From the NCBI RefSeq assembly GCF_009905215.1, contig NZ_CP047593.1, positions 1,120,900 through 1,184,899 of the forward strand: a stretch of DNA of 64,000 nt. Direction: 5' to 3'. The DNA comes from Tichowtungia aerotolerans (GTDB taxonomy: Bacteria; Verrucomicrobiota; Kiritimatiellia; Kiritimatiellales; Tichowtungiaceae). The translations under genes and the position numbers were made by a program. This document shows positions 457 through 55,726 of this stretch, piece after piece. Under the pieces are notes generated by a model, which saw nothing but the letters and a program-made list of their open reading frames with translations, was not told the origin of the DNA and made no database searches. The number at the start of each line of letters is the position of its first letter. Positions within the stretch are counted from its first letter, which is position 1.

Positions 457-781
457 ATTTCACCCTTTAGAACCACCGCACCCAGCGGCACGATCAGCGG
501 CTTTAACATGTCCATAGCGGCCAAAAACATGGCTGGCATTGTGTCATAACCAAAATGCGTATAAAAGACCTTCACTTTGAAAATCTTTGTGGGGAAGTCC
601 CCCACAAAAAACCAAAACGGCATCAAAATTGAGAAATCACCTGTCGCACCCAAACAAACCGCAGAACGTCGGAAGTTCCAAACATTGGAACTTCCGGCGT
701 TTCTTTTTTCACGGTATTATTGGGAACAGCCCAATTAAACGAGCCGCTTCGCGTTAAAAAATACAGAGCATGGAGACCCCA
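457..781. other. Intergenic region with three hairpins
   Basis: About 325 bp without a convincing gene separates the divergent ORF6N and BCCT genes. It holds a 9-bp-arm hairpin (TTTGTGGGG/CCCCACAAA, 586-608), a terminator-like hairpin built on the dispersed palindrome (670-707), and a small inverted repeat ATTGGG/CCCAAT (719-735). A 66-codon minus-strand reading frame (453-653) overlaps the ORF6N start and shows no family resemblance, so I do not call it. Both flanking promoters must lie here, but no strong -35/-10 pair stands out. Confidence 0.6.
670..707 (+). terminator. Hairpin with T-tract upstream of the BCCT gene
   Basis: The arms CGGAAGTTCCAA and TTGGAACTTCCG enclose ACA and are followed by GCGTTTCTTTTTT, the form of an intrinsic terminator on the plus strand. 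The stem core is a copy of the dispersed palindrome (676-690). No plus-strand gene ends just upstream in the window, so it could insulate the transporter from read-through or act as a leader attenuator. Confidence 0.6.
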
Positions 782-2598: not shown

Positions 2599-2633
2599 AG
2601 CCGGAGTTTTCCAAACATTGGAAACTCCGGCTT
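2599..2633. terminator. Bidirectional terminator on a palindrome copy
   Basis: The arms CCGGAGTTTTCCAA and TTGGAAACTCCGG surround ACA, between the convergent BCCT and aldolase genes. Read on the minus strand the stem is followed by six T, so it should stop aldolase transcripts well; on the plus strand only CTTT follows. The core, 2609-2623, is a perfect dispersed palindrome, and a second copy (TTCCAG-ATT-CTGGAA) lies at 2661-2675, 52 bp away. Confidence 0.75.
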
Positions 2634-5790: not shown

Positions 5791-5851
5791 GAAAACGGCC
5801 CGCTTTCCAACCCTTGGGAAAACGGGCCGCACAACGTTCCAATGTCTGGAA
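5791..5851. terminator. Terminator containing a palindrome pair, after the SDR gene
   Basis: The arms CGGCCCG and CGGGCCG enclose TTTCCAACCCTTGGGAAAA, a palindrome copy with one extra G (5805-5820). On the minus strand the stem is followed by TTTTC, fitting a terminator for the uxaC-SDR transcript. A second copy at 5837-5851 touches the SDR stop codon. The 16-base gap between the two copies matches that of the 31-bp pairs elsewhere. Confidence 0.7.
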
Positions 5852-14669: not shown

Positions 14670-15764
14670 TTACAAACCGCCGGCAAAAGTCGCCGCCTCT
14701 TCGAACAGAAGATCCCGGCTGCGGGCAATCGACTCCTCGACACTCATCCCCGCCGGTTGAAGCGTCGCCACCCGGTCAATGCCGGCAATGCGCCACTCCG
14801 GCTCGGTTAACCGCACACAGCCGGCAATCACACCGGTCCTTGCACCGGCCCGCTTCGCCAGCCGCTGCACACCGTCGACCACTTTACCCTGCACCGACTG
14901 CATATCAAGTTTGCCTTCCCCCGTCAGGACCCAGTCCGCGCCTCTCAGCGCATCGGCCAGCCCCAACGTTTCCATCACCGTATCAATGCCGGGAACCAGT
15001 TTCCCGTTCATAAACGCCACCGCACCGAAAGCCAGCCCGCCGGCCGCGCCGGCGCCCGGCAGATCTCTCAGAGGAACTCCCGGCTCGGCGCCTCGGACTT
15101 CCAGGGTCTGGAAAACCGTCTCCGAAAGTTTCCAAAGTTTTGAATCGAGCATTTTCACCTGCTCCGGCGTGGCCCCCTTCTGAGGTCCATACACATACGC
15201 AGCGCCGTTCGGCCCGCACAGTGGATTGGTCACATCGCACAGCACATCCATTTCCGGCAGGTTCAGCCCTGCCGGCGGCTCGGTGATTCCAACCCCTGGA
15301 ACAATTTTCCAGCCCAGCGCTTCGGCCGCGCCGATTCCACCGTCAACAGTCGCGCTGCCGCCGACCGTCAGCAGAATCTTCTGCGCACCTTTTTCCGCCG
15401 CAGCCTTGATCAGCTCTCCGGTGCCATAGGTCGTCGCATGAACCGGATTGCGAACTTCCGGCTTCAGCAGCGGCAAGCCGCTGGCCTTCGCCATTTCGAC
15501 CACCGCGGTCTTTGTTTCCGGAAGCCATGCATAGCCTGCTTCAACGCGCATATGCGGAAACGGGCCGGTCACCGTCATGGGAATCCATTCTCCACCAAGC
15601 GCGGACATCAGCGCCTCTGCAGTGCCTTCACCGCCATCGGCCATCGGCCGAACCACCGTTTCAACATCCGGCCGAACCGATTGAATACCTCTTGCCGCAA
15701 TCTCGCAGGCGTCCTGTGCCGTCATATTTCCTTTAAACGAATCAAATGCCAGAACTATTTTCAT
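14670..15764 (-). CDS. Glycerate kinase (GarK/GlxK type)
   Basis: A glycerate kinase of about 364 residues, phosphorylating glycerate to 2- or 3-phosphoglycerate. It starts MKIVLAFDSFKGNMTA and carries PMADGGEGTAEAL, TYGTGELI, TVGGSATVDGG and LTGEGKLDMQS, the conserved blocks of this family. I favour the ATG at 15764; a GTG two codons earlier (15770) is the alternative and sits closer to GGGAG. A palindrome pair 31 bp apart (15099-15113 intact, 15130-15144 decayed) encodes SKLWKLSETVFQTLE in a variable region. It may link sugar acid breakdown to glycolysis. Confidence 0.95.
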   Translation of the reverse strand: MKIVLAFDSFKGNMTAQDACEIAARGIQSVRPDVETVVRPMADGGEGTAEALMSALGGEWIPMTVTGPFPHMRVEAGYAWLPETKTAVVEMAKASGLPLLKPEVRNPVHATTYGTGELIKAAAEKGAQKILLTVGGSATVDGGIGAAEALGWKIVPGVGITEPPAGLNLPEMDVLCDVTNPLCGPNGAAYVYGPQKGATPEQVKMLDSKLWKLSETVFQTLEVRGAEPGVPLRDLPGAGAAGGLAFGAVAFMNGKLVPGIDTVMETLGLADALRGADWVLTGEGKLDMQSVQGKVVDGVQRLAKRAGARTGVIAGCVRLTEPEWRIAGIDRVATLQPAGMSVEESIARSRDLLFEEAATFAGGL

Positions 15765-18641: not shown

Positions 18642-19913
18642 TTACCCTGCAACCATTCGAACCATTTCCTGCATAACGCCCCTGCGGGACTCGACCAGTC
18701 GGGCGGCGGAGGCGCCGAGCGTTTTCCGAGCCCCGGAATCGGCCAGCAGTTCTGCGACCGTTTTTTCCAAGGCTTGAAAATCCACGACCTGCCGCAAAGC
18801 ATTGGCGGACAGAAAGTCGTCCATGACGGACGGAAAATTTTCCATATTGGGGCCAACCACAATCGGTTTTCCGAACAGCGCCGGTTCAATCGGGTTCTGA
18901 CCTCCATGCTGTGTGAGGCTTTTGCCGACAAATACCAGATCGGCGGCGGCATAAAAGCCCATCAGTTCACCGGTGGTATCAATCACCAGCACGTCGGCCT
19001 TTGACGCTTCCCGGGAGCGAAGCGAGCAGGTCAATCCCTGCCCCTCAATAGCGGCCGCCACATTTTCGCGCCGCTCGGCGTGGCGCGGAACCAGAACCAG
19101 AAACAGGTTCGGATATTTTTCGCGCAGTGTTTTATAGATTCTGCAAAGCACCTCTTCTTCGCCGTCCCAGGTGGAACCGCCGAGCAGGATGAACGCATCA
19201 TCCGGAACACCCGCCTGTTTCAGAACGGCGCGCGCCGGCACCGCAGCATCCGGCGCGGGCGGCGGAAGATCATATTTGGCCGTTCCGAGCGCATGAACGG
19301 ATTCGGGCCGTGCCCCCATTGCAAGCATGCGCCCGGCATCCTGTTTGCCCTGCACACAGATCGGATCGATCAGTTCCAGAATCCGGCGCGTGAAGCCGCG
19401 CAGTTTCATATAGCCGCGAAATGAGGAATCGGAAACACGTCCGTTGATTAATGCGACCGGAATGCCGCGCCGATGCGCCTGCCGAATCAGGTTGGGCCAG
19501 AATTCACATTCAACCAGAATCAGTTGGAGAGGATGGATAGCGCCAAAGGCTCTCTTCATGATGAACGGCATATCCAGAGGGAAATAGATCAGCACATCAC
19601 GGCGGTCCATTCGTTTCTCGCCAATGGCATGCGCCGTCGATGTATTGGTGCTGAGCACAAACCGTGCGTCGGGATTCTGCCCGCGATACGCCGCGATAAA
19701 ACTCAGCGCAATATTGATTTCACCCACGCTGACGGCGTGGATCCAGATGTGGCGCCCCGCTTCCAGTCGACGGGTTATTCCGTGCCCATAAATACCGAAC
19801 CGCTGTTCGAAATGCTTTTTGTAACCGCCGCGCCGCGCCATGCGCGTCAGGAATTTCGGCAGCATCAGCAGAAACACCAGAGGAAACACCAGATTGTAAA
19901 TAAACCAGATCAT
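18642..19913 (-). CDS. waaA: 3-deoxy-D-manno-octulosonic acid (Kdo) transferase
   Basis: A GT30 glycosyltransferase of 423 residues at the inner membrane that adds Kdo to lipid A. An N-terminal membrane helix leads into the GT-B fold; HAVSVGEINIA near residue 60 contains the catalytic Glu, followed by STNTSTAH and FPLDMPF. The second domain has GGSTWDGEEE, VPRHAERREN, FVGKSLTQHGGQNPIEPA and GPNMENFP. It shows this organism builds lipopolysaccharide. A decayed palindrome at 18765-18779 encodes FQALEK. It lies 55 bp after the recombinase-KilA-N block; no other LPS gene is near. Confidence 0.96.
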   Translation of the reverse strand: MIWFIYNLVFPLVFLLMLPKFLTRMARRGGYKKHFEQRFGIYGHGITRRLEAGRHIWIHAVSVGEINIALSFIAAYRGQNPDARFVLSTNTSTAHAIGEKRMDRRDVLIYFPLDMPFIMKRAFGAIHPLQLILVECEFWPNLIRQAHRRGIPVALINGRVSDSSFRGYMKLRGFTRRILELIDPICVQGKQDAGRMLAMGARPESVHALGTAKYDLPPPAPDAAVPARAVLKQAGVPDDAFILLGGSTWDGEEEVLCRIYKTLREKYPNLFLVLVPRHAERRENVAAAIEGQGLTCSLRSREASKADVLVIDTTGELMGFYAAADLVFVGKSLTQHGGQNPIEPALFGKPIVVGPNMENFPSVMDDFLSANALRQVVDFQALEKTVAELLADSGARKTLGASAARLVESRRGVMQEMVRMVAG

Positions 19914-21833: not shown

Positions 21834-21910
21834 TTCCAGACATTGGAAATTTATACCTGAAAAATTCCAATGCCTGGAAGCCCGACGATGATTTTTTCCA
21901 ATGCCTGGAA
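21834..21910. repeat. Three palindrome copies in a 31-bp-period array
   Basis: TTCCAGACATTGGAA (21834), TTCCAATGCCTGGAA (21865) and the same again (21896) are separated by two unlike 16-base spacers, giving an exact 31-bp period. The array fills the space between the topA stop and the KilA-N gene; the last copy ends two bases before the topA stop codon. On the minus strand the middle copy is followed by five T, so it may also terminate topA transcripts. Confidence 0.85.
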
Positions 21911-25567: not shown

Positions 25568-26161
25568 TTATTTCTTTCTTCCCTCAAACAGTTCCATTTG
25601 CGAATCCTTCAGGAGATCGTAGGTTTTCAGAATGCGCAGAATCTGAAGCAAATCTGATTTTTCGTAGTTTTTGACCGTGTCGAGATGATCGATCAGCTCC
25701 AGCAGCATCGTTCGGAACGACAGAACGCCATCTACGCCGTTTTTCCGCATCATCGCCAGTGTTTCATCATACAGATCCGCCGTGGCAGTCAGATCGGACA
25801 CGCACAGGATTCTGACAATCGAACCCGGGCCGAGAATTTTACGCGCTTCCTGAATCACCGAAAGCTCCGTAAACCGGAAAATTTCCGGATTCTGTCTGAG
25901 CGTTGCAGGACTGAAGCGGTCGGTATGCCAGCCGCGAATGCTGACCACCGCGCGCTGCACATCCGCCAGATTTCCAGAGTTCCACACGACCTCTTTCGGG
26001 GAGTTGAACACGCCCGCCTGACCGGGTCGGGTAATCAGCAGGTCGATTTCTTCGACGTCATGTTTGTGGCGGGCAACCACCTGATGCTTATTCGGCTGGA
26101 TTACAAAAAACCCCAGAGTTTCAAAATATTCCCGGACGATCCACTCATTGACCGATGCCAT
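25568..26161 (-). CDS. Unknown protein between dprA and aroB, possible nuclease-like fold
   Basis: A 197-residue protein I do not recognise. It starts MASVNEWIVREYFETLGFFV and has EEIDLLITRPG near residue 38, a spacing that recalls the acidic strand of PD-(D/E)xK nucleases such as YraN, followed by a conserved-looking VVSIRGWHTDRFSP and IVRILCVSDLTATADLY. No membrane segment is present. It overlaps aroB by 17 bases and abuts dprA, so it is co-translated with both. The link with dprA makes a DNA-handling role plausible, but that is inference only. Confidence 0.75.
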   Translation of the reverse strand: MASVNEWIVREYFETLGFFVIQPNKHQVVARHKHDVEEIDLLITRPGQAGVFNSPKEVVWNSGNLADVQRAVVSIRGWHTDRFSPATLRQNPEIFRFTELSVIQEARKILGPGSIVRILCVSDLTATADLYDETLAMMRKNGVDGVLSFRTMLLELIDHLDTVKNYEKSDLLQILRILKTYDLLKDSQMELFEGRKK

Positions 26162-27218
26162 CCCATACCTCCTCCATCAGCTCTTCAGGAAGCTCACAGC
26201 CGAAATCGACATGGCCGATCCGGTCCGTCAGCACAAACTTCGGCAGGCCGCCGACCGTCTTCTTGTCGACCGCCATCGCCTTGCGCAGGTCGCTCCACAC
26301 CAGCCCCGGCGCGGTGACCGGCAGCTTCAGCGCAGCCAGCAGTTTTTCGATGCGTTCCGATTCTTCAACCGAAAGTCCCTTTAAAGCCACCGAGAGGCGT
26401 GCGGCATACACCATGCCGATTGCAACGGCCTCGCCGTGGAGAAATTGTCCGTAGCCGGCCACATTCTCAATCGCATGTGCCAGCGTGTGCCCGAAATTAA
26501 GAATACCGCGCAGGCCGCCTTCGCGCTCGTCCTGACGTACCACCTCGGCTTTGATCTCGCAGCAGCGGGAAATAATTTTTCCAAGGTTTGGAAAATCGTT
26601 CGGTGATTTTTCCAAGGTTTGGAAAAGGCGGGAGTCCCAGATGACGCCGTATTTGGCAACCTCGCTCATGCCGGCGGCAAATTCGCGCTCCGGCAGCGTT
26701 TTGAGCGTATCGAGGTCGATCATCACCAGCTCCGGCTGGTGAAAGGCACCGACGAGGTTTTTTCCGGCCGGGATGTTGATGCCGGTCTTGCCGCCGACAG
26801 AGCTGTCGACCATCGCCAGCAGCGACGTCGGAACCTGTACAAATTTGATGCCGCGCAGCCAGCTGGCGGCGGCGAAGCCGGTCAGGTCGCCGATGACGCC
26901 GCCGCCGAGCGCAACCATAAAACATTTGCGGTCAAGACGGTTTTCGGCGGCTTTGGCGTAAAGATTCAGCAACTGTTCATGGCATTTGGTCGGTTCGCCC
27001 GCCGGAAGCACCTCGGAAACCGGGCAGAAACCGGCTTTTTCCAGGGATTTGAACACGTTCTCTGCGTAGAGAGGCGCGACGTTTTCGTCGGAAACGATCA
27101 GGCAGCGGCCGGTCAGCCCGGCAGCTTTGCAATCCGCTCCGAGACTGTCGAGAATGTCTGAGCCGATGCGAATTGGATAAGAGCGGTCGCCAAGGTCTAC
27201 TGTTACGTCGTGTGTCAT
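26145..27218 (-). CDS. aroB: 3-dehydroquinate synthase
   Basis: A shikimate-pathway enzyme of 357 residues that converts DAHP to 3-dehydroquinate using NAD and zinc. Family blocks are clear: ALGGGVIGDLTGFAAAS, VQVPTSLLAMVDSSVGGKTG, FAAGMSEVAKYGVI, LNFGHTLAHAIE and FLHGEAVAIGM (metal ligands). Between MSEVAKYG and CEIKAEVV, where the family is variable, a palindrome pair 31 bp apart (26579-26624) encodes FQTLEKSPNDFPNLGK, the two copies read in different frames. A decayed copy at 27039-27053 encodes FKSLEK. It heads an operon with the unknown gene and dprA. Confidence 0.97.
   Translation of the reverse strand: MTHDVTVDLGDRSYPIRIGSDILDSLGADCKAAGLTGRCLIVSDENVAPLYAENVFKSLEKAGFCPVSEVLPAGEPTKCHEQLLNLYAKAAENRLDRKCFMVALGGGVIGDLTGFAAASWLRGIKFVQVPTSLLAMVDSSVGGKTGINIPAGKNLVGAFHQPELVMIDLDTLKTLPEREFAAGMSEVAKYGVIWDSRLFQTLEKSPNDFPNLGKIISRCCEIKAEVVRQDEREGGLRGILNFGHTLAHAIENVAGYGQFLHGEAVAIGMVYAARLSVALKGLSVEESERIEKLLAALKLPVTAPGLVWSDLRKAMAVDKKTVGGLPKFVLTDRIGHVDFGCELPEELMEEVWDGIGQ
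26579..26624. repeat. Palindrome pair inside aroB
   Basis: Two identical copies of TTCCAAGGTTTGGAA start at 26579 and 26610. The spacer ends are complementary (GGAAAATC and GATTTTTCC), so the 46-bp unit can fold as two small hairpins or one large one. It is translated as FQTLEKSPNDFPNLGK. Confidence 0.9.
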
Positions 27219-29540: not shown

Positions 29541-30173
29541 TCAACTAAATTTCGGCTCAATAAATACCGGCGGGTGCATGTAGAGCGGCTCAAGGTCCTC
29601 GGGACGGGTCTGCGCCAGATCAGCCACCTCTTTGGCATGCGGAAAGTGTGCGCATCCAATATTTGGAAAGATTTTTGTCAGCCGTTCGGCCTCGGGGCTG
29701 ACGATAACGGCTTCAGCAGACACAGAAACCTCTTCGTAGGGGATTAATTCCCAATCTTTTGAAAGTTTGATACCGCCGTCTTCCAATGCTTGGAAAAGTC
29801 CGATCCAGACCTGCCCGCGGCGGGCATCGCCGACCACGGCGATTTCTTTGGCGCCTTCGCGGGCAATAGCTAGAGCCAGTGCCGCGCCGCTGCTGACGGC
29901 CCGCACTTCTTTTTTATCGGGCAGCGCCAATGCCTGCGCAATCGCCAAACTCATGCGCATGCCGGAAAATGATCCCGGTCCCCGGCCAACCGCAAACCGC
30001 GATATATCACGATACGACAGTTCGGCCTCCTGGATCAGGGTTTCCAACGTTTGGAAAATGGTGTTGTGACGAACGCGGTCGGCAATCCAGCTTTTTTCGC
30101 CAATCACATCACCGTCTCTGAGCAGGGCGAGAGAGCCCTGCCGTGAGGAGCATTCTATGCCAAGAGTAATCAT
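29541..30173 (-). CDS. tsaB: tRNA threonylcarbamoyladenosine biosynthesis protein TsaB
   Basis: A 210-residue ASKHA-fold partner of TsaD in making t6A at position 37 of ANN-decoding tRNAs. It has the N-terminal ITLGIECSSRQGSLAL, GRGPGSFSGMRMSLAIAQAL (family signature) and a DARRGQVWIGLF stretch. Three palindrome traces are inside: 30042-30056 (FQTLE), 29781-29795 (FQALE) with a decayed partner 33 bp away (SKDWEL), and a 14/15 match at 29654-29668 (FPNIG). It overlaps tsaE by four bases, so the two proteins of the same complex are co-translated. Confidence 0.94.
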   Translation of the reverse strand: MITLGIECSSRQGSLALLRDGDVIGEKSWIADRVRHNTIFQTLETLIQEAELSYRDISRFAVGRGPGSFSGMRMSLAIAQALALPDKKEVRAVSSGAALALAIAREGAKEIAVVGDARRGQVWIGLFQALEDGGIKLSKDWELIPYEEVSVSAEAVIVSPEAERLTKIFPNIGCAHFPHAKEVADLAQTRPEDLEPLYMHPPVFIEPKFS

Positions 30174-30595
30174 AAGGGGTTCTCGATAATCTGAATTGTA
30201 CGAATCTGTTCGTCGTCACCGCGCTGAAGACGTACGTGGACCGCATCGGGAGGAATGAGCTCGGCAGCCCGCTCGGCCCACTCGATGACCGTGATGCCGT
30301 CGGTTTCAAGGTATTCGTCGAGGCCGAGGTCGTATGCTTCTTCAGGCCCCCCAAGGCGGTAGAGGTCAATATGATGAAACGGAACGGCTCCCTGATATTC
30401 ACTGATCAGCGTATAGGTGGGACTGCAGACCGGCTCTTTCACGCCGGCGGCCTGCGCCAGTCCCTGCGTGAAACAGGTTTTGCCCGCACCAAGGTTCCCG
30501 TGCAGGGCAATAACCGCCGGAAGTTCCAGGGTTTGGAAAAATTCGGCGGCGATTTTCCAAGTATTGGAAGGGCTGCTGGAAATCCATTCGTTCAT
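30170..30595 (-). CDS. tsaE: tRNA threonylcarbamoyladenosine biosynthesis ATPase TsaE
   Basis: A P-loop ATPase of 141 residues that drives the TsaB-TsaD-TsaE complex. Walker A is GNLGAGKTCFTQGLA, followed by SPTYTLISEY, FHHIDLYRL and the Walker B-like ITVIEWAERA, all diagnostic. A palindrome pair 31 bp apart (30524-30569) encodes SNTWKIAAEFFQTLE in the N-terminal part, just before the first core strand. The coupling to tsaB by a four-base overlap supports the assignment. Confidence 0.95.
   Translation of the reverse strand: MNEWISSSPSNTWKIAAEFFQTLELPAVIALHGNLGAGKTCFTQGLAQAAGVKEPVCSPTYTLISEYQGAVPFHHIDLYRLGGPEEAYDLGLDEYLETDGITVIEWAERAAELIPPDAVHVRLQRGDDEQIRTIQIIENPL
30524..30569. repeat. Palindrome pair inside tsaE
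   Basis: TTCCAG-GGT-TTGGAA (30524) and TTCCAA-GTA-TTGGAA (30555), 31 bp apart. They are translated as SNTWK and FQTLE, in different frames. The spacer ends are again partly complementary. Confidence 0.9.
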
Positions 30596-32959: not shown

Positions 32960-33871
32960 CTACTGCAGGTTCTCAATCATCCGAAGTACCGTGTCCCCAA
33001 TGGTCTGCATACTCCCGGCCGACAGCTTATCCATCGAATCTTCGGTCGTGTGCCAATAATCATTGAGTCCCGGAGCCGACCCGAACTCAAAATCAATCAC
33101 GTCAATGGCCGGCATGCCCGCCAGCAAAAACGGCACATGGTCATCCAGAATGGATCCTTTGCCTAAACTGAACACGGACCGTGTGCCGACTTCATGAGCA
33201 GCAAAGAACAGCTCTTTAATCAGCGTCTGGGAACTGTTGCGCGGCACGGTGACATTCAGATCCGCATCCCCGATCATATCGAGCACAATCACAGCCTCCA
33301 CATGCGGCACCCCGCCGCCTTCGGCAATCTGCTGCGCCAGCCGTCGACTGCCGTGCAGGCCATCGTTGGGCGCATACTCACGACTGCACTCCTCCCCATC
33401 AAAAAAGGCGACCAGAAACTCTGTTTCATACGGCCCTTTTTCAGACAACACCCGCGCCAGCTCCAGCAAAACCCCGGAGCTCGATCCGGAATCATTCGCA
33501 CCTTCAAAATCCGGCGAAATCCCGGATTTAGTATCAAAATGAGATCCCAGCACAATCAGGCGCGGTGTTTTACCGGGGAGCCGTCCCAGCACATTATTGA
33601 AAATCCGCTTCCCGTCCGGAGTTTCCTCCGTAAAGGTGTCGATTTTGGTCTTAAGTCCAAACTCCTTAAGCTTCCGCTCCAAGTGAACCGCCGCGCGCCG
33701 CGCGCCACCCGTTCCCGCATCGCGCGGGCGAATGGCAACCAACTCTTCCGTTTCAGCAAATGCCTTTGCGCCATCAAATCCGGATGATCCCGCTGGAGAA
33801 CAGCCGGCTATAACCAAAAGTTCCAAACATTGGAAAACCGTTAGTCCAATTTTCCAATATTTGGAACCCAT
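32960..33871 (-). CDS. M28-family zinc aminopeptidase lipoprotein
   Basis: A lipoprotein peptidase of 303 residues. The signal ends in LLVIAGC, a lipobox with Cys for lipid attachment. The peptidase has the co-catalytic zinc ligands in order: GSHFDTK (His, Asp), EGANDSGS (Asp), FFDGEECS (Glu pair), VLDMIGDAD (Asp) and YWHTTEDS (His). Glutaminyl cyclases share this fold, so cyclase activity is an alternative. Most of the signal peptide, YWKIGLTVFQCLE, is translated from a palindrome pair 31 bp apart (33821-33866). The start at 33871 has a poor ribosome site; an ATG at 33916 is possible but would put 45 bases of non-signal sequence in front. Confidence 0.88.
   Translation of the reverse strand: MGSKYWKIGLTVFQCLELLVIAGCSPAGSSGFDGAKAFAETEELVAIRPRDAGTGGARRAAVHLERKLKEFGLKTKIDTFTEETPDGKRIFNNVLGRLPGKTPRLIVLGSHFDTKSGISPDFEGANDSGSSSGVLLELARVLSEKGPYETEFLVAFFDGEECSREYAPNDGLHGSRRLAQQIAEGGGVPHVEAVIVLDMIGDADLNVTVPRNSSQTLIKELFFAAHEVGTRSVFSLGKGSILDDHVPFLLAGMPAIDVIDFEFGSAPGLNDYWHTTEDSMDKLSAGSMQTIGDTVLRMIENLQ
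33821..33866. repeat. Palindrome pair forming a lipoprotein signal peptide
   Basis: TTCCAA-ACA-TTGGAA (33821) and TTCCAA-TAT-TTGGAA (33852), 31 bp apart, are read as YWK and FQCLE inside the signal peptide of the M28 peptidase. Confidence 0.9.
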
Positions 33872-36219: not shown

Positions 36220-37565
36220 AACCGCTCCACCTTTTCGACATAGGCATTAATGTCGCATTTGCGTTTGAGACCCGCGGCGTTCATATAACGCGTTTTCCCA
36301 AAAACCGGGCGCGCCGCCCAGGCCGTGTCGTGTTTGCCGAAAACCCAGGCAACTCCGGCGTATGAATTAGGGTCGCGCCCGTCGATAAAATATTTGTTAT
36401 TGATCGCCAGCAACGTTTCAAACGCTTCCTCCGGCGACGGGCTCCACTCGAGCACTTTTTTGCCCCAATACATGCGCATGTAGTTGTGCATAAAACCGGT
36501 CACGCGCATCTCTGTCATTGCCGCGTTCCAGTATGGATCATGCGTCTGCGACTGCTCGAACTGCTCGCGCGTATAGAGATACTCGCGCTCATCCTTCGCG
36601 TGATTTTTGAGCGTCTGCTTCGCCCAGTTCGGAAGACAGGAAAACTGATCGTAGTCCGGAGTGAACCAGACAAAATTCATCGCCAGCTCGCGCCGAACAA
36701 TCAGCTGCTCGATGAACGCATCCTGCGCCTCTTTAGCCGCGTCGCTTTTCAAAACCTCCAGCGCGATGGTTAGCGGAGAAATCTGCCCAAAGTGCAAATA
36801 TGGACTCATCATCGATACATCATCGGTCTGCGGCTGGTTGCTGTGATCGCTGTACACCGCCAGACTGTTTTTGATGAACTGTTTAAGCCGCCGTTTTGCC
36901 TCTGCCGTTCCGCCTTTAAACGACTTAACCGCGCCGACGCTTCGATCGAGTTTCAGGTTTCCAATGGTTGGAACTTGTCGGCTCAGTTTTTCCAGCCCTT
37001 GAAACCATTCCCGTGCCGCAACGCAGTTGCTTGCCAATGGCTGAAGAAATTCGTTGAGGTTTCGATGGATTTTGGGGCGAAGGGTGCGGGCCATGTATTC
37101 GGGTTTGTCGGAGGCGGTTTCGACCGGCACCACAACGTCGCTCTCAACTTCGACGACCTCACAGTCCGATTCGTCGGCGACCCGCGCGCGCCACTCAGCC
37201 TGATGGCGCAGATAGCCCATATCGCACACAATCAGCGCGGCCTCTTTGCCGGCTTCAATGGCAACGTCTGCCGGATGACCGCGACCGATAAACGCGCCGA
37301 TGCCGCGTTTTTCCAAAGTTTGGAAAACTTCTTCGAGCCCCTGAAGCATGAAGGCGTAGTGGCGCTCGTTGGCTTCGGGGTAGTCGTCCATCAGACCGAA
37401 AACGACAGCCACAGGAAGGGTCCATTGATTGGCGCGCTCAATCGCGTATTCGAGCGCATGGTTCCATTCGGCGCGCTGGCTCTGCTGCATCCAGTAGAGA
37501 ACAAACCCGCCGGATTGCCGGACGGGTTTGTCGTTCAGTTTATGAATGCGCGCCGGATGAATCAT
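36216..37565 (-). CDS. phr: Class II CPD photolyase
   Basis: A 449-residue light-dependent repair enzyme for cyclobutane pyrimidine dimers. The N-terminal FVLYWMQQSQRAEWNHALE and the C-terminal FAD-binding blocks MSPYLHFGQISP, FIEQLIVRRELAMNFVWF, GFMHNYMRMYWGKKVLEW and DGRDPNSYAGVAWVFGKHD are those of class II, the animal-plant-archaea-like class. A palindrome pair (36959-37004) encodes WFQGLEKLSRQVPTIGN, and a single copy at 37311-37325 encodes FQTLEKRG. It shares a four-base overlap with the 2H gene and lies just after a ferritin-like gene. Confidence 0.96.
   Translation of the reverse strand: MIHPARIHKLNDKPVRQSGGFVLYWMQQSQRAEWNHALEYAIERANQWTLPVAVVFGLMDDYPEANERHYAFMLQGLEEVFQTLEKRGIGAFIGRGHPADVAIEAGKEAALIVCDMGYLRHQAEWRARVADESDCEVVEVESDVVVPVETASDKPEYMARTLRPKIHRNLNEFLQPLASNCVAAREWFQGLEKLSRQVPTIGNLKLDRSVGAVKSFKGGTAEAKRRLKQFIKNSLAVYSDHSNQPQTDDVSMMSPYLHFGQISPLTIALEVLKSDAAKEAQDAFIEQLIVRRELAMNFVWFTPDYDQFSCLPNWAKQTLKNHAKDEREYLYTREQFEQSQTHDPYWNAAMTEMRVTGFMHNYMRMYWGKKVLEWSPSPEEAFETLLAINNKYFIDGRDPNSYAGVAWVFGKHDTAWAARPVFGKTRYMNAAGLKRKCDINAYVEKVERL
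36959..37004. repeat. Palindrome pair inside the photolyase gene
   Basis: TTCCAA-TGG-TTGGAA (36959) and TTCCAG-CCC-TTGAAA (36990; right arm one mismatch), 31 bp apart, encode VPTIGN and WFQGLEK. Confidence 0.85.
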
Positions 37566-41679: not shown

Positions 41680-42451
41680 GCGGCGGTCGGACCGCGGCAG
41701 GATAACCCGGCAGGATTTCAGACAACGCCTGCTTAATTTTTGCAATGGCAAACGGTCCGGAGGCGCGGGCGTTTACTGCATCAACCAACGACTGGAGCTC
41801 GGGAGCCTGCGATTTTTCGATCCGCAGATACGGCAGCGGATCAATACTGGCCGATGCGCTGACAAATCCCTTTGCTCCCGCCGCGTATGCCTCCGAAATT
41901 CTACGGTCTCCACCGACAAAATAATTCGGGGTCGCCGGAATCAGCGACAGGTCAGCAGAGGAATCTTTTACGCCCCAGTGCGGAATATCTTTCAGCAGCT
42001 CAGGAGTCAGTGTATTGCCGACGTGCTTCGGGAAATTATAGAGAATCAGCGGGAGATCACTTCCGAGTGACAGGCGACAGAACCATTCCACCAAACCGTC
42101 CACCGGTGCGTTTGCGAAGTAATAGGGAGGCAGCGTGGCAATAAAGTCCGCTCCTGCCTCCTGCGCATGGTGCGCCGTTTCCAAACATTGGAAAAGTGCC
42201 GGAGATGCCAAATGAAAAATCAGCGAGCCCTTCCACGCCTCGCGGCTGACGCGCAGCAGCTTCATCTGTTCTTCCGGCGTCAGAGAAAAAAACTCGCCCG
42301 TCGTACCGTTCACCAGCAGATTGCGAACACCGCATTCCGCCAGCCAGTCGAGATGCGAAAGAAACGCCCCGAAATCAATCGCATCATCATCGCCAAAAGG
42401 CGTCGGCACCGGCACCACCAGACCTTCCAGAGTAGAAACAGCTTTTTTCAT
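41657..42451 (-). CDS. DapA-family aldolase/lyase
   Basis: A class I aldolase of 264 residues, slightly short for the family (about 290). PVPTPFGDDDAIDF, NGTTGEFFSLTPEEQ and LILYNFPKHVG (catalytic Tyr) are clear, and GVKDSSADL carries the Schiff-base Lys. The neighbourhood does not suggest lysine synthesis, so 2-keto-3-deoxygluconate aldolase, N-acetylneuraminate lyase or a dihydrodipicolinate synthase role are all possible. A palindrome copy at 42179-42193 encodes FQCLETAH. The ATG at 42451 lacks a Shine-Dalgarno; the divergent methyltransferase starts only 28 bp away. Confidence 0.87.
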   Translation of the reverse strand: MKKAVSTLEGLVVPVPTPFGDDDAIDFGAFLSHLDWLAECGVRNLLVNGTTGEFFSLTPEEQMKLLRVSREAWKGSLIFHLASPALFQCLETAHHAQEAGADFIATLPPYYFANAPVDGLVEWFCRLSLGSDLPLILYNFPKHVGNTLTPELLKDIPHWGVKDSSADLSLIPATPNYFVGGDRRISEAYAAGAKGFVSASASIDPLPYLRIEKSQAPELQSLVDAVNARASGPFAIAKIKQALSEILPGYPAAVRPPLTSAPVG

Positions 42452-43235: not shown

Positions 43236-46200
43236 TCAGGGCAGCAGAACATCCACTTTGTAATAACCCTGCATGAAACGATTGGTGTCGATAATCGAAA
43301 AGCCCGCCCCGTTTCCCTCGGAATTTGTCAGCACAGACCACTGTCTGGACTGCAGGTTGGTGGAAACAAAAACCGCATAGAGCCGTCCGGTTTGAGTGGC
43401 AAACCACAGATCCGGGAATTCTCCGGACAACTGAAGGACTGACTCGGCATTCGTCGGATCGGTCCCGGCGACATATTCATGCCAGTTGTCGAAACCGTCG
43501 CCGTCCGGATCGGCGTTGTCTTTGGACAGCCCCACCGCGATCTGCGCCGGAGAAAACTGCAACGCAGTCCACGCTTCCGGCGGTATTGCATCCGAAACGA
43601 CCTGAAGCATTCCGCTGCCGCCCAGCCGGAAACTGTCGTAATCAGCACCCGACCCCGGCGCGCCCCAGGAACCGGCGGAGGCCCAGCTCTGTCCGCCGTC
43701 AAACGACAAAGCACGCACCGCAATATTTTCCGAAAGCGAAACGACGGCGGCGCCGATCAGCAGATAAAGATCCGGATGCAATGTCGTTGCTGAAAGCATC
43801 CCCTCCCGCACATCAATCATTCCGGAAATTCCGGACGCATCGTCCAGTTCCAGCGTTCCGCCGCCGGTCTTGCGCAGCGTTCCGCTTTCTCCCGGTTTGT
43901 CTGCAATCGTCACCCCCGGTTCCAGCTGCATCGAATATCCGGATTCGATCCGAAACTCGCGTGTGCCTGTGCCCGCCAGCTGGACACTCCCGCCCGCAGC
44001 AGTTTTCACAAGTGCATCGCGCGCGCCGGGGGCGAATACGCCGCTGTTGAATTCAAACACCGAATCCGGATTTGCAAATGTAACGGTGGAAACCGAAGCG
44101 GTGCCGCCGTCGAGAATGTATTTTCCCCGCGTCAAATTCTGGCCGAGTCTCAAACCGTAATCCCAATGGTTGACGGTTACAGTTCCAGCCGTCTGGCGAA
44201 ACACGGTCGCATCGCCTGATTTTGATACGCCACCCAGTTCAATCTGTGTCTGAACCGTGAGCGCCCCCGCTTCATGCGTGTAGTACGAGATATTTGACGA
44301 AAGGCCCACTGTATCCAGCAGAAAATTCCGCACGGCGATTCCCCCGGCATCGACAATATCCGCCGCGGCATTCTCATCGCCATTGACCACCGCCAGCCGC
44401 GCACCGAACCAGACATTGTCGAACATATCGATCGAACCCGTTCCGTCGCCGACCGCAAAACGCCCTGTACTCAAACCGTCATTCACAATCCGCAAACCGG
44501 CGGTATTCCAATAATTGGAAGCCGAATTGGAACGGGACGCTTTGAACCAGCCCGCTTCCGCCGGCTCATTAATGGTAATGGATGGATTGCCGGGGGCATA
44601 ATTCCAGACCACCCCGTTGTCGGCGGCAGGCGCAGACGGGATCCAATTCGTCGCAACATTCCAGCTGCCGCTGTGTCCCGGATCGGCCCAATGCACAGCC
44701 TCCTCAATGATCACCCCGACATACCGATCGATCGAACTGAGCGCGATTTTCACATGGTTGGTGTCGGCTGCATCAATCAGGTTGATCATCGCATCATCCG
44801 GCGAAACCACCTTCACCTGCAAATCCTTTCCGCACAGCCACGCCGGCAGCTCCGCCTCGATTTCAACCGAACCGGTTCCGGTTACCGTATAGCTGTTGAT
44901 GTCGATATCCACATTATTGACATCCATAAAAAAGCGCCCGGCCCCCTCGTCGGCATAAAGCGTGATTCCCGTTTTATGTGAAGCCGTTGTCTCGACCCGC
45001 GGCGCCAGATCGTTGAGTGCGGCGTCAAACTGTGCACGCTGCGCCGCACTGCGGTTTTCATACGCGAGATAATAGTCCATCCCCAGATTGCCGGGCAGCA
45101 CCGTGACGTTCGCATGATTCATTATAGAAGCCACAGAAAGTCCGTTGGTATTAAGAGCAAAGTTACCGGACTCTCCCAAATAAATGCCGCAGTCGCCGGC
45201 AATAACCAGCCGCCCGCCGGCGTTGAGCCACAGCTCCAGCACACCGGACACATCCGCCGGGTCCAGCACATCGACATTGGGCAGAATCAGCAGATCCAAG
45301 CCGGCCAGCTCCTCGGCATTAAGTTTCCATTCCGGCAGTACACGGTACGGAATATGCAACTCAGTCAGCGCTGTCGCCCAGCCCCAGAACGAAAACTGGT
45401 GCGGCTGGCCGTTGAAGTCGACAAACCCGCCCGGCGTCATCTGCCGCAGAATTGAAGACGAGGAATAATAAAGTCCGACCTTCTCAACGGGAATGCGGTC
45501 GCCGTAAATCGGGGCAACGAATTCGACGAATTCAAAGAAGCCGGTATTGGTCTGCTCATCACCGGGGATGCGGGAGCTGGCCGGATCAAACTTCGGAAAT
45601 GTGTGTGTAGCGAGCATTTCATAATAGAGCGCATGGCACAGTTCCGGATGTGCGAGCTCCGCTTCATAACTGTCATTATAGAGCCAGACATTGACGAAAC
45701 GGCTTTGAGCATGCTCACGAGCCAGCTTGTAAAACGGCGCATAACGCCCGACCGGCGGCAGCGTAAAGCCATCGGGGCCACTGCTGGTCTTGTAACCAAG
45801 AGACATCTCCGTGCTGACCATATCCAAATCACCACGAGACCAGCCGAGGCTGAACCCGGGGATGTCGTTGCCCGCCACAAGAAACTCGTCATTGCCCGCC
45901 GCAGCCGCCGCAGACTTAACGGCGGCATAATAACCGGACAATGCCTCTGTGCCGACCTGCCGCTTAAAGATCAGATAGGCGCGCCAAAGCGGATCATCCA
46001 GCCACCGTGAATCTTTCCAGACAGAACTGTTGAGATTGCTGCCATCCCAGCCGAATGCTGATGCTTCAGCCCGCAGGTATTCTCGGATATCAAATGTTGA
46101 AACATCCGCAATACCCATGGATAACAAGTCAACCGAACTGAATGAGTTCGCAAGATGATCCCGGAACCGGGCAACTGACCAGTCGCCGAATCCACGCTTG

Positions 46201-47000: not shown

Positions 47001-48685
47001 TTTGAGAAATCCGAACGAATCTTCAGCATCTCCCCATAGTCTTCAATTCCGCATCGTTTCTGCCAGTTGCGGCATGCTTCTGCCAGCTGCTGAACCAGTT
47101 CCGGTTTCTGTTTGGCGAGGTTTGTTTTTTCCGCTGGATCGGTTTTCAGATCATATAATTCATACTCAATGCCCGGCTTTTTACTGGTCAGCACATACCA
47201 GCCCGGCTCGATCAGCAGTTTCCAGCGCCCTTTATAAATGACGCCCTGCTGGCCCTTATCGTTACTGAACAGATATTCCGGCGGCGCCAGGGTTTCACCT
47301 TTCAGCACCGGCAGCAGACTGCGCCCGTCCAGCGGCGCCGTTTTGCTGCCGCGAAATTCAGACGGATAGGTTCCGCCCGCGAGCTCCAGGCAGGTCGGAA
47401 GGAAATCTCCAACCCAGCCGACACTATCCGAAATCGTTCCGGGCTTGATAACCTTCGGCCACTGGGCAATACAATGTGTCTTTGTGCCGCCCTCCCACAT
47501 CAGCGCTTTGCATCCGTAGTACGGCACATTCATCAGGTCGCCGAGATGCGAAGCCGCGCCGTTGTCAGACAGATAAATCACCAGCGTATTGTCCAGCTCG
47601 CCGGTTTTTTCCAAGGTTTGGAAAACTTTCCCGACGTTCTCATCAACCTTCTCCACCATCGCCGCATGAATGGCCGCCCGCAGCTGGTATTCCTTTTTCT
47701 TTTCCTCCGGCATCTTGCGGGCCGGAATAAAATATTTCCTAAACGACGTTTCGGCCGTCCACAACCCTTCGCGCACTAAACCGGCAACTCGATCCATTTC
47801 CACTTTCGGAAGATCCGCATAACGCGACAGATATTTATCCACCAGCTCCTGCGGCGCCTGCAGCGGAAGGTGAGGCGCGCGATATGCTATGTACATAAAG
47901 AACGGCTCCGGCTGCGCAGCGGCCTCTTCGATCATTTCAATTGCACGGTCGGTCATGCCGTCGGTGCCATAGAACGCCTTGGCAGTCTTCCCGTGATTCG
48001 GCGTGTAGGGATAGCGGTCTTTCTTTTTGTAGAAACAGTTCATGTTGTATTCACGATCGATCTTCAACCTCGCATGCTCGTTGCCTTCGAGATATTCATG
48101 CTTGTCGGCGGCCGTGAAAAACTGATGGGTCTCGCCTTCAACCAGCCCGAAAAATTCGTCAAACCCGCGCTGCGGCGGCAAGGCATTAAAGTCGGCCTCA
48201 ATTTCAGCATCCGTCAGCTCCCAGCCGGGGTGCGTCTGTTTCCACCAGGCCTGTCGCGCCGGTTGACCTTTCATCAGGCTGCCGCCGAGATGCCACTTGC
48301 CGGTCATCATCGTCCGGTACCCAGCCGCCTTCATGACTTCGGCGATCGTGGGCAGATCATACGGAAGGCGCGCGCGATAAGCGGGCTGTTTCATCTCGCG
48401 GTTCCAGCCGCCGAGCGTACCGGCGGCAAATCCGGCAAACGCCGAATCGCGGCCGGTCATCAGCGATGCCCGTGTCGGACTGCAGCGACCGTTGTTGTAA
48501 AAATTTCGGAAACGCAGACCGCTTCTCGCCATGCGGTCAATATTCGGAGTATCGATTTCGCCGCCATAACAGCCGAGATCAGAATAGCCCGAATCGTCAG
48601 TAAGAATAATCACGATATTCGGCCGCTCTGCCGCCATCCCAGCCGCCGCTCCGACTGCCGCCAATAACACATTCCATTTCATCAT
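46997..48685 (-). CDS. S1-family sulfatase
   Basis: An exported sulfatase of 562 residues. A signal peptide (MMKWNVLLAAVGAAAGMAA) precedes NIVIILTDDSGYSDLGCYG (calcium-binding Asp pair) and NNGRCSPTRASLMTG, where Cys of C-x-P-x-R becomes formylglycine. MTGKWHLGG and VIYLSDNGAASH supply further active-site residues. The general layout fits arylsulfatase A-like enzymes; the sulfated sugar is unknown. A palindrome copy at 47609-47623 encodes FQTLEKTG. It is 11 bp after another sulfatase gene. Confidence 0.95.
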   Translation of the reverse strand: MMKWNVLLAAVGAAAGMAAERPNIVIILTDDSGYSDLGCYGGEIDTPNIDRMARSGLRFRNFYNNGRCSPTRASLMTGRDSAFAGFAAGTLGGWNREMKQPAYRARLPYDLPTIAEVMKAAGYRTMMTGKWHLGGSLMKGQPARQAWWKQTHPGWELTDAEIEADFNALPPQRGFDEFFGLVEGETHQFFTAADKHEYLEGNEHARLKIDREYNMNCFYKKKDRYPYTPNHGKTAKAFYGTDGMTDRAIEMIEEAAAQPEPFFMYIAYRAPHLPLQAPQELVDKYLSRYADLPKVEMDRVAGLVREGLWTAETSFRKYFIPARKMPEEKKKEYQLRAAIHAAMVEKVDENVGKVFQTLEKTGELDNTLVIYLSDNGAASHLGDLMNVPYYGCKALMWEGGTKTHCIAQWPKVIKPGTISDSVGWVGDFLPTCLELAGGTYPSEFRGSKTAPLDGRSLLPVLKGETLAPPEYLFSNDKGQQGVIYKGRWKLLIEPGWYVLTSKKPGIEYELYDLKTDPAEKTNLAKQKPELVQQLAEACRNWQKRCGIEDYGEMLKIRSDFSK

Positions 48686-50109: not shown

Positions 50110-53100
50110 TTAATCGTTTTCCGGCACAGCCAACACACGATAACAGCGGGAAGGATCATCCGTCGCCGGACCGGTCCATGTATTGGAGCCCTGTTCACGC
50201 GCTTTGGTTCCAACCGTTGTCCAGGATTCTGAATCCAGCAAATTGGTGGTGCTCTGAATCACATAAGGCGTCATCAGGCCATTGGTTCCTCCGCGCCACG
50301 ACAGGCTGGGCACGGAATTTTCCAACCATTGGAAATCGGTGATGGCAAAAGCGGCTCCGTTTTCCAAAGGTTGAAAACCGGCGATGTATTCCTGCCGTAT
50401 AGTCATGCCGTTGCCGTTAAGATCCTGCGCTTCTATCTCCGCCCAGGTCTGCCAGTTTGTCGGAGTCACGCCGGCCTGACGGAACCACTCAACCGGAATG
50501 CCGGACCGCGAACGAGGTTCCTCGCCGCGCATCTTTGCGTCGTACTCAAGAATCAGGTCCAGTACACCCATATACGCACCGGTATCCGGATAAATCGTGC
50601 CTTCTTCTGCACGGTTAATACCGCGATCAAACACCCAATAGGCAGCGAGGTCCGCACCACTCTCGACAATGGCCTCGAGCAGGGCTGTTTCTTCAACCTG
50701 TTCATTCTCCGGCAGCGCCCCCTGCCCGTCGTAAAAGCTGGAATATTCACCCACGAACATGGCCTGATTCTGATCGTCACAAAACTCGCGATAGATCTGA
50801 AGAATATCGGATACGCCGCTTGCTCCGGCATAATCGATGTCGCCGTTCGAATCCTCCATGCTGTAAGGATAGACGTGAAACGAGGCCATATCGATAGAGG
50901 ATGTGGGAGCCATCCAACTGTGGGCTTCTTTGGCCTGACTATAGCTGTCGGCCGTCCAGCTGCCTTCCATCCGGTTGTGCCATGCGCTTGGCCGGGGGCG
51001 CGAGTTGCCGGTTGTAATAAAGCGATGCGTATCGAATTTGCGCACCTCCTGTGTAAACAGCCCAAACGCGGCTTCAGCAATCGCATAAGTGAATTTGTTG
51101 CTTTCATTCACCTCCGTCGCCGGACCGACCACACCCAGCTGCGGAATAACGGTTCCGAGTCCAGTCGTCCAGTTGGGCAGATCGCACATATTATTGAATT
51201 CGTTGCCGTATTCCCATCCCCAGATTGCCGGAGAATCTTTATAACGGCCGACCACTTCATGAATATAGTTCGACATAAACTGCCATGTGTCACTATTCGG
51301 ATTGGCCAGTTGGTCGCGCGTTTCGCCGATCAGTTCCGGATAGGTGCTCATTCTCCAAAACACACTGGGAATCAGCCCCACGCCGACCTCCTCGGCAGTG
51401 GCCACGATAAGGTCCAGACGGGAAAACCATTCCTCCTTGTCCGAAAAATACAGATCCCAGTCGCTGGGCCAGAAACCGCAGGCCCAGAAACGCGCAAAAG
51501 GAATCCCAAGCTCTCCCAAAAACCGCAGGCCCTCGATCGTGCGAAACTCGGTCTGTCCTGTATGCTCGGGGAAATTGATCATCGCCTGAAAAAGGTCGCA
51601 ATAGTTTACGCCAACGCCCTTATACGGAATGCCCTCTTTGTAAAGAACTCCATCCACCACGGCCAAACCGGGCAATGCCCCGAAATGCTGAAGGGTCGTG
51701 CCGCCGTTGCTCACCCCGAAACGTTCCAGTCCGGCCGGCACACCGTCAATGGTCAGCTTGCCTGCATCAGCCAGCTGCTGCCAGTCAGACGTCGTGAACA
51801 CCGCACCACTCTCCGTTTTGGAAATGGTGACAGCACCTTTGAATCCCGACTCAAAATTAAACACCACATTACGATCGGCAGTCTCCATCTGCCCGAAGTT
51901 CACATCCGCAGTTCCGCCCGAAAGCAGATTCACAATACCGCCGGCGGCCTTGAAATACTGCGAACGAAAAACTCCGTCCCGAATATTTAAAATTCCTTTT
52001 CCGTTGGCAACCATTCGAAACGCATCGCCCGCTTCGATCCGCCCGCGCAAAAGATTCAGTTCAATCCCGCCCCCCATATGCGACCAGACAATCAGGTTCC
52101 CTGGCACAAAAAGATTGGTATACGAACCTGGCTCGTTCACGGAATCGTCAATCGTCCAAACGGTCTTACCCGGAACAGAAACCGCTTCATTTGTCGCACC
52201 GCCGCGCAGGTTCAAATCGCCGACGGCCACGCAAACCCCGCCCTCCTGCTGCAGGGAAATATCATAAACAATTGACGGTACCCAAAATGTTCCGCCCGAC
52301 GGCATTTCAGAACCGTCGACCAGGCCGACCTGTCCGTCGGTCTCCACGGGCAATACATCGCCAACCCAGTTAGCCGCATCATACAAATTACCGGTGTTGT
52401 CCGGCTTCAGGCGAACCGGCAACTGATACCGAAACGGCGCTGCCGGCAACCCTTGAGAATTAAACAAACTCACATCTCCCCAGTTAAACCAACCGTACCG
52501 GGCACCCAACGGCTCCGGCACACCCAAACTGAAAACCCGAATCCATCCGTCCGAAAGAATTTCCGCATCTGCCGAAACAAACACACCGTCTGAGCCGCAC
52601 ACCTCAAACCCCTGCGCAACACCGTTCTCAAAAAACAGCCCTTCCGAAGAAGTCCATTCCACCAACACATCGCCGCCATTGATTTCCAAGGTTTGGAAAA
52701 ACGGACCGGAACAATCGATCGTTTCCCCGTACACATTCGCACGGGCCAGCAGAGCCAGCCGCTCGCCGACGGGCTCTTTGTCCGCCGGATGGATTTCGTT
52801 TTCCTCGCCCAAATCAATTGTCACGGCCAGTTCAACACCGGAAAGATTATTGGCAACCTGCGTCTGCGCGGCGCGCACTGCGGGCCAGTCGTTCCACTCC
52901 CCGACACCGTATCGCGGGAGCTGAACAATTAAAAATGGAAGCTCCGCCCGCTCCCACTGTTGCCGCCAACTGTTAACCAGCGCCGTCAGCGTTTCGGCAT
53001 AGCCGGGTGCCAGCCAACCCTGCGAATTGGCTTCGCCCTGATACCAGATCACACCCCGAATGCTGAACGGCTGGAGCGGTGCCACCTTGCCGTTGTACAA

Positions 53101-54589: not shown

Positions 54590-55726
54590 TCAGTCCTTTT
54601 TATACACGGTCTGCAGCGCCGTCTTCGCCAGCCGCTCGCCGACCGGCTTTTTATCCGGCGGATGGATCTGATCGTCGCGTCCGCAATCGATGGTCACGAT
54701 CATTTCGACGCCGTCCATCGCTTCAGCAACCTGCGCCTGCGCAGTGCGAATGGCCGGCCAGTCGCTGCCCGCCCCGTAATTATAATGCGGAAGCTGCACC
54801 ACCAGAAACGGCAGCGCCAAATCTTCAAACCCTGCCCGCCAACTGTTGATGAGAGCGGTGAGCGTTCCGGCATAGCCGGGGGCCAGCCACTTCTGCGAGT
54901 TGCCCTCGCCCTGATACCAAATCACGCCGCGCGCGGCCATCGGCTGCAGCGGTGCCACCTTGCCGTTAAACAACGCACCCGGACGACGGAAGTTGTTTTC
55001 GCCCCAGTACCCTTTGGGGTCGGATACACCGGGCTCGATTTCTTTGGCGGCCTTATCGAGAAACGGCGTGGCGGACGGGGTGTTTTCCAAGGTTTGGAAA
55101 TCAATCCAGCATTCGGCGTAAGTGCCGCCCATCTGTGTGTTAATGACCGCCAGCGGCGTACCTTCCGGCAGCGATTTTTGAAGTTCGCGCGCAAAAAAGA
55201 AACCGACGCCGGAAAGCTGCGCGGCCTGCTGCGGATTGCAGCTCACCCATTGCCCGCCGGTCACATCGCGCGCCGGTTCGTCGCACGCACCATGGTTCGG
55301 CCACTGCTTGAAAATTTTCAGCCATGGGTAATCCGCCGTCGCCGCGGCCTCGGGACCACCGTCACAGTTTTTGAGCGGCCAGCCCATGTTCGACTGTCCC
55401 GCCAAGATCCAGACCTCGCCGACGAGTACGTTGGAGAATGTCAAGTGGCTGGTGTCGAGTGACGAGTGAACAGAAAGTTTCCGAGGTTTGGAAGATGCGG
55501 GCATTGGATCAAAAATCACCTGCCACTTGCCACTGTCACTTGTCACTCCAGACTTCGTCTGACCGGCGAATTCAACAGTCACCTCGGCGCCGGAGTCGGC
55601 CTCGCCCCAAACCGGCACCGGCTTGTCGCACTGCAGGACCATGCCGTCGCCAAAGATCGAAGGCAACCACAGTTCCGCCTGAGTCGAAACACACATCGCC
55701 ACCCAAACAACAAAAATCCGTTTCAT
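54590..55726 (-). CDS. Sialate-O-acetylesterase-type carbohydrate esterase
   Basis: An exported esterase of 378 residues. After a signal peptide (MKRIFVVWVAMCVSTQA) it has a beta-sandwich half (LWLPSIFGDGMVLQ, PVPVWGEADSG) and the SGNH catalytic domain: VGEVWILAGQSNMGWP with the Ser, GVIWYQGEGNSQ, and DDQIHPPDKKPVG with the His. It probably removes acetyl groups from a polysaccharide. It is a close paralog of residues 258-720 of the downstream fusion protein, even sharing FQTLENTPSA from a palindrome copy (55085-55099), so one arose from the other by duplication. It overlaps the upstream sulfatase gene by four bases. Confidence 0.93.
   Translation of the reverse strand: MKRIFVVWVAMCVSTQAELWLPSIFGDGMVLQCDKPVPVWGEADSGAEVTVEFAGQTKSGVTSDSGKWQVIFDPMPASSKPRKLSVHSSLDTSHLTFSNVLVGEVWILAGQSNMGWPLKNCDGGPEAAATADYPWLKIFKQWPNHGACDEPARDVTGGQWVSCNPQQAAQLSGVGFFFARELQKSLPEGTPLAVINTQMGGTYAECWIDFQTLENTPSATPFLDKAAKEIEPGVSDPKGYWGENNFRRPGALFNGKVAPLQPMAARGVIWYQGEGNSQKWLAPGYAGTLTALINSWRAGFEDLALPFLVVQLPHYNYGAGSDWPAIRTAQAQVAEAMDGVEMIVTIDCGRDDQIHPPDKKPVGERLAKTALQTVYKKD
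55442..55549. repeat. Word-like repeats in the esterase gene
   Basis: Two blocks (55442-55471 and 55519-55549) consist of AGTGAC/GAGTGAC/CAAGTGGC-like words on the minus strand. They are in frame, encoding SLDTSHL and SDSGKWQ. The paralogous positions of the fusion protein hold different repeats. Confidence 0.5.

Follow-up and report, generated by a model that had tools for sequence, protein, structure and literature searches.

A 15-base palindrome in phase with the DNA helix, spread through the genes of one bacterial class, as a putative network of dyad operators

NrdR acts through two palindromic boxes that are bound by one oligomer and whose spacing is about 31-32 bp, on occasion close to 21 or 42 bp. 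The operators of the Lrp/AsnC family (FFRP) are clustered palindromic sites found on the same face of the helix, with their centres two or three turns apart, and the proteins bind them cooperatively and wrap the DNA (PMC2995911). HIP1 of cyanobacteria is a short palindrome present in high copy number and distributed patchily between relatives (PMC4390886), while the Rickettsia palindromic elements are palindromic DNA translated inside open reading frames that stay unbroken (PMC3767692). Here, we describe a palindrome that shares features with each of these systems, and of which no description was found in the literature searched.

The window, by which we mean the whole 64-kb stretch of DNA analysed, contains 21 exact copies of the 15-base palindrome TTCCAANNNTTGGAA, compared with none in 100 dinucleotide shuffles, together with 22 one-mismatch and 12 two-mismatch copies (the main sites are listed in the table). 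The complete genome, a single contig of 3.88 Mb, harbours 567 exact copies and none of the reversed control. From 464 kb of the same genome, sampled as 20-kb stretches, an extended consensus close to TTTTCCAANNNTTGGAAAA was derived; the conserved unit spans 15-19 bp and consists of 12 fixed bases around a free 3-base centre, with A/T flanks. The favoured central trinucleotide varies from genome to genome, and one-mismatch variants cluster at particular positions, with the inner A>G change accounting for most of them. A simple gene caller applied to 20-kb stretches of this kind placed 65 of the 86 sampled copies in genes, distributed over the three frames as 28, 21 and 16, and the other 21 between genes. 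At 664-702 of the window, one intergenic copy caps a terminator-like hairpin of 18 pairs, which is followed by a T-run.

Table. Palindrome sites of the window and the aroB host gene (positions are those of the window).
Position	Feature	Context	Relation to other sites or orthologues
676..690	exact motif	intergenic, tip of terminator-like hairpin (-28 kcal/mol)	
2609..2623	exact motif	intergenic, apex of long hairpin (-24.3 kcal/mol)	
5805..5851	two one-mismatch copies		32 bp apart
15099..15144	degenerate pair, two and one mismatches	coding	31 bp apart
18765..18779	one-mismatch motif	Kdo-transferase gene	gap-free, exact in G032 and G414
21834..21910	three one-mismatch copies (21834, 21865, 21896)		31-bp period
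26145..27218	aroB, 3-dehydroquinate synthase, minus strand	PF01761, PF24621	host gene of pair
26579..26593	exact motif	aroB loop, FPNLGK frame	31 bp from 26610
26610..26624	exact motif	aroB, FQTLE on FxxLE pattern	
29781..29795	exact motif	tsaB-like gene, FQALE	exact in G032
30042..30056	exact motif	tsaB-like gene, FQTLE	exact in G032
30524..30538	one-mismatch motif	tsaE, FQTLE	31 bp from 30555; exact in G127
30555..30569	exact motif	tsaE, SNTWK frame	
33821..33835	exact motif	M28 peptidase gene, indel-rich N-terminal region	31-bp pair
33852..33866	exact motif		partner of 33821
36959..36973	exact motif	photolyase gene, PTIG frame, variable loop	
36990..37004	two-mismatch motif	FQGLE	31 bp from 36959
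37311..37325	exact motif	photolyase gene, FQTLEK	orthologues gap-free with 1-2 mismatches
42179..42193	exact motif	DHDPS-family gene, FQCLE	G032 gap-free with one mismatch
44506..44520	exact motif	coding	
47609..47623	exact motif	coding	
50320..50334	exact motif	coding	42 bp (4 turns) from one-mismatch copy 50362
50362..50376	one-mismatch motif		partner of 50320
52684..52698	exact motif	coding	
53212..53226	exact motif	coding	
53654..53668	exact motif	coding	
55085..55099	exact motif	coding	
57621..57635	exact motif	coding	
62186..62200	exact motif	coding	

The imprint of the motif on the encoded proteins is visible in all three frames. Over 261,206 residues, the peptide FQxLE occurs 86 times against the 2.5 expected from residue frequencies (~34-fold), Q being the second residue in 86 of the 132 occurrences of FxxLE, and exactly the motif codons are used in 43 of the 86, where codon usage predicts 0.5. 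The peptides of the other frames, S[NK]xW[NKS] (33 observed, 3.1 expected) and the PxxG type (43 observed, 7.4 expected), are also enriched. This three-frame enrichment and the excess of exact codons bear out a sequence-only reading of the same DNA, which had taken the palindrome for a DNA-level signal translated in several frames within conserved enzymes. Its examples were recovered as well: SNTWK then FQTLE in tsaE (30555/30524), FQGLEK then PTIG in the photolyase (36990/36959, the former copy with two mismatches), and LWK then FQTLE in a putative glycerate-kinase gene (15130/15099, with one and two mismatches). Its statement that the repeat is free of stops holds for two frames, which never contain one, but not for the FQxLE frame, in which NNN can be TAA, TAG or TGA.

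The aroB pair consists, as had been read, of two exact copies 31 bp apart that encode FQTLEKSPNDFPNLGK in two frames. Counting some copies with 1-2 mismatches, the second site lies 31 bp away in G000, G319, G035, G398, G404 and G388 and 42 bp away in G032 and G408, that is, at one of these two distances in eight genomes of two families despite differing loop lengths and frames. The sequence-only reading had counted the same residues in orthologues lacking the palindrome as evidence against itself, and in part such residues do occur: at the aroB site, orthologues carry FRKLE, FKTLE, FECLE or FDFLE. Since these palindrome-free orthologues keep F-x-x-L-E, the motif was written onto a pre-existing pattern via codon choice and the Q at position 2.

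The origin of the coding copies was approached by comparing the window's own genome with its closest sampled relative, G032, across 63 orthologue pairs, in which 27 exact coding sites were judged in both directions. No gap was present inside or within 15 bp of 18 of these sites, seven had a gap nearby and two a gap inside; at the orthologous positions of G032, eight of the 27 were exact and seven had one mismatch (15 with 0 or 1 mismatch). Codon alignments with genus-mates likewise revealed no gaps inside the sites at 18765, 20273, 26610, 29781, 30042, 30524, 30555, 37311, 40532 and 42179, where orthologues carry the full motif, a partial motif or none, while the sites at 26579, 33821, 33852 and 36959 are located in indel-rich stretches. 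Identity at third codon positions between the two genomes was 0.76 in the motif and 0.58 in its flanks (p=0.0008). Because most sites align without gaps, the coding copies at most of the compared sites arose through base changes where the residues were already compatible (FxxLE and similar patterns) and not by insertion, with a minority in indel-rich loops. The alignments thus went against the insertion that the sequence-only reading had envisaged by likening the motif to the Rickettsia elements, although the unit is indeed much smaller than theirs; placement in variable loops or between core strands applies to some copies, but several others sit on a conserved FxxLE pattern.

Neighbouring copies are in phase at 10.5 bp, a property absent from the earlier reading. 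In the whole genome, 26 exact pairs have their starts 18-48 bp apart, where ~2.6 would be expected for random sites, and their spacings of 31 (12 pairs), 42 (7), 22 (5), 30 (1) and 40 (1) bp give R=0.91 at this period (p about 4e-10). Neighbour distances of 35-170 bp collected from several genomes yield a best period of 10.4-10.5 bp (R=0.73, n=42, p about 1.6e-10), this multi-genome sample being drawn partly from loci picked for a 31-bp pair, which leaves the own-genome test unaffected. In the 35-170 bp sample, genic pairs alone reach R=0.85, and the subset of them with spacings other than multiples of 3 reaches R=0.87 (n=17, p about 3e-6). The persistence of the phase in this subset rules out a codon or heptad periodicity as its cause. 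Intergenic far pairs alone display a weak phase (n=10, p=0.03). Arrays of 4-7 copies are found in other genomes, one of which (G087) takes 22-bp steps and then steps of 30-31 bp that restore the phase.

The motif is restricted to one class (Kiritimatiellia-type), in which its presence is patchy: among 388 genomes of the phylum, large counts occur only inside the window's class, where a genome has anything between 0 and 1339 copies and members of one genus differ, and the highest count outside the class is 5. Loci with a 31-bp pair belong mostly to Kiritimatiellae, Lentisphaerae or Verrucomicrobia MAGs, and such a pair was present in only two viral contigs. Samples of the own genome contain sites on both arms, and a search of these samples for a chromosome macrodomain pattern with GC skew revealed only motif-free stretches. 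One region of ~126 kb (G000:C1:94646-220623), possibly acquired DNA, has no exact motif where ~18 are expected, and the stretch G000:C1:3600000-3619999 (L296), with a GC content of 44.5% compared with ~54% elsewhere, contains neither exact nor one-mismatch motifs. In two low-copy genomes, phased pairs lie beside restriction-type genes (L230 4000-4045 and L231 1332-1378; HSDR_N and ResIII helicase), and these were perhaps moved by horizontal transfer.

A protein that reads the motif was not found among RAYT, Lrp/AsnC, NrdR and ComEC, none of which tracks copy number. RAYT (PF01797) was rejected as a driver, having no match in G148, G384 and G053, with 183, 111 and 58 copies, and many in the motif-free G068 and G136. 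Lrp/AsnC did not discriminate either, its gene occurring in every one of the 33 motif-rich genomes, in most low-copy genomes and also in motif-free ones; comparison of its HTH sequence between motif-rich and motif-free genomes revealed no distinguishing change, and G000 and G032 are the only genomes, among those checked, in which the motif closely precedes the gene. The zinc ribbon of the near-universal NrdR is canonical whatever the motif number, and no motif is located upstream of nrdR. ComEC is matched in 30 of 33 genomes without following motif number, and one 271-copy genome has no match (a draft, so that the absence is uncertain). Intergenic arrays are followed mostly by housekeeping genes with no relation to one another, in which no regulon is apparent, and a Pfam scan of array-flanking genes, including those of the rare arrays in low-copy genomes, yielded no recurrent DNA-binding gene. 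A 329-aa protein, for which Pfam gave no match up to E = 1, is encoded beside an array of G087 (L241 7289-8275, minus strand) and on other contigs of G087 and G101. Its gene is a dispersed family of roughly 20 or more copies per genome with ~67-81% DNA identity, and it was discarded as a motif-linked candidate because the motif is missing from the surroundings of most copies inspected.

On balance, we favour the view that the copies make up a class-restricted, patchy network of dyad operators for a putative self-associating dimeric DNA-binding protein that probably organises the chromosome; we infer the existence of this protein, its dimeric form, its self-association and its organising role. 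The consensus would be a dyad operator recognised sequence-specifically by the dimer, and neighbouring dimers would associate with one another along a single helix face, at copies that are distributed genome-wide, mostly in genes, either singly or in sets spaced by 2, 3, 4 and more whole turns. Coding copies would have been gained mainly by point substitution at positions able to accommodate FQxLE, SNxWK or PxxG, in some cases with the aid of small loop indels, and with the phase of pairs retained. A chromosome-organising or global role would be expected in preference to a small regulon, and seems the most likely because the sites are spread over the chromosome next to unrelated genes. In favour of the operator model count the helical phasing, the spacing kept in aroB and the DNA-level pressure visible in codon use and third codon positions. 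Against it count the negative search for a reader among the families tested, the lack of a chromosome-domain pattern in the samples, the varying central trinucleotide and the weak phase of the few intergenic far pairs; moreover, arrays in some genomes look like stereotyped units, which copying could also produce. A bolder version, which we hold only tentatively and think rather doubtful, is a chromatin-like system of hundreds of phased dyad sites across the coding genome that reshapes the proteome in three frames, with a class-specific architectural protein that polymerises on or wraps the DNA. The strength of the signal at the DNA level suffices to fix peptide patterns in the conserved enzymes of a whole bacterial class, FQxLE-type residues in these proteins may mirror DNA binding and not protein function, and the helical phasing makes the repeat a testable protein-DNA system.

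Several other accounts can be set against the operator model. The motif may be an iterated palindrome like HIP1 that has no binding function and arises as a side effect of methylation-directed repair or of another mutational ratchet, and its palindromic form, its very high frequency within and between genes, its origin by substitution, its patchiness among relatives and the concentration of one-mismatch variants at particular positions all agree with this; we nevertheless consider it unlikely, as whole-turn spacing does not follow from a ratchet that works on one site at a time, and the described HIPs are short and GC-rich. It is decidedly unlikely that the motif is a small selfish palindrome of the RPE, REP/BIME or MITE kind, entering genes by insertion and multiplying in arrays, even though arrays in some genomes reach 7 copies at stereotyped distances, orthologous arrays differ by one 31-bp unit, centres are genome-specific and some copies adjoin indels: most compared coding sites are gap-free, RAYT transposases are missing from well-populated genomes and frequent in some motif-free ones, and insertion does not predict the 10.5-bp phasing.

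A DNA uptake signal accumulated via preferential uptake and recombination would suit the many genic copies at permissive residues, the terminator hairpins formed by some intergenic copies and the occurrence of ComEC in nearly all genomes checked, but uptake of single sites needs no helical phase and ComEC does not track motif number, which renders this account very unlikely. That the copies are transcription terminators or RNA hairpins, as suggested by those at 676 and 2609 and by the intergenic fraction, is highly improbable given that most copies are genic, in all three frames, and that the phase matches B-form DNA. Selection at the protein level for the FQxLE peptide has next to no chance of being right: FxxLE is indeed present at the aroB site in motif-free orthologues, but the codon and frame evidence refutes such selection as the sole cause, exact codons being far above codon usage, third positions being more conserved in the motif than in its flanks, and the motif also occurring between genes.

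Compared with known systems, the motif resembles Lrp/AsnC clusters in that spacings of 22 and 31 bp predominate, with 42, and differs from them in its hundreds of near-perfect, mostly genic sites, in spacings that extend to 4 and more turns, and in that the class's AsnC gene does not track it. NrdR boxes have a similar pair spacing and a different sequence. The Rickettsia palindromic elements are insertions of 100-150 bp, whereas the motif measures 15-19 bp and arises mostly by substitution, and unlike REP/BIME it has no RAYT association and is not extragenic. With HIP-type palindromes it shares a high copy number within and between genes and an origin by substitution, while being longer than HIP1, A/T-flanked, free in its 3-base centre and organised in phased pairs and arrays. 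No tested family has every defining feature; the geometry is closest to that of Lrp-type clusters, and the abundance is closest to that of HIP1.
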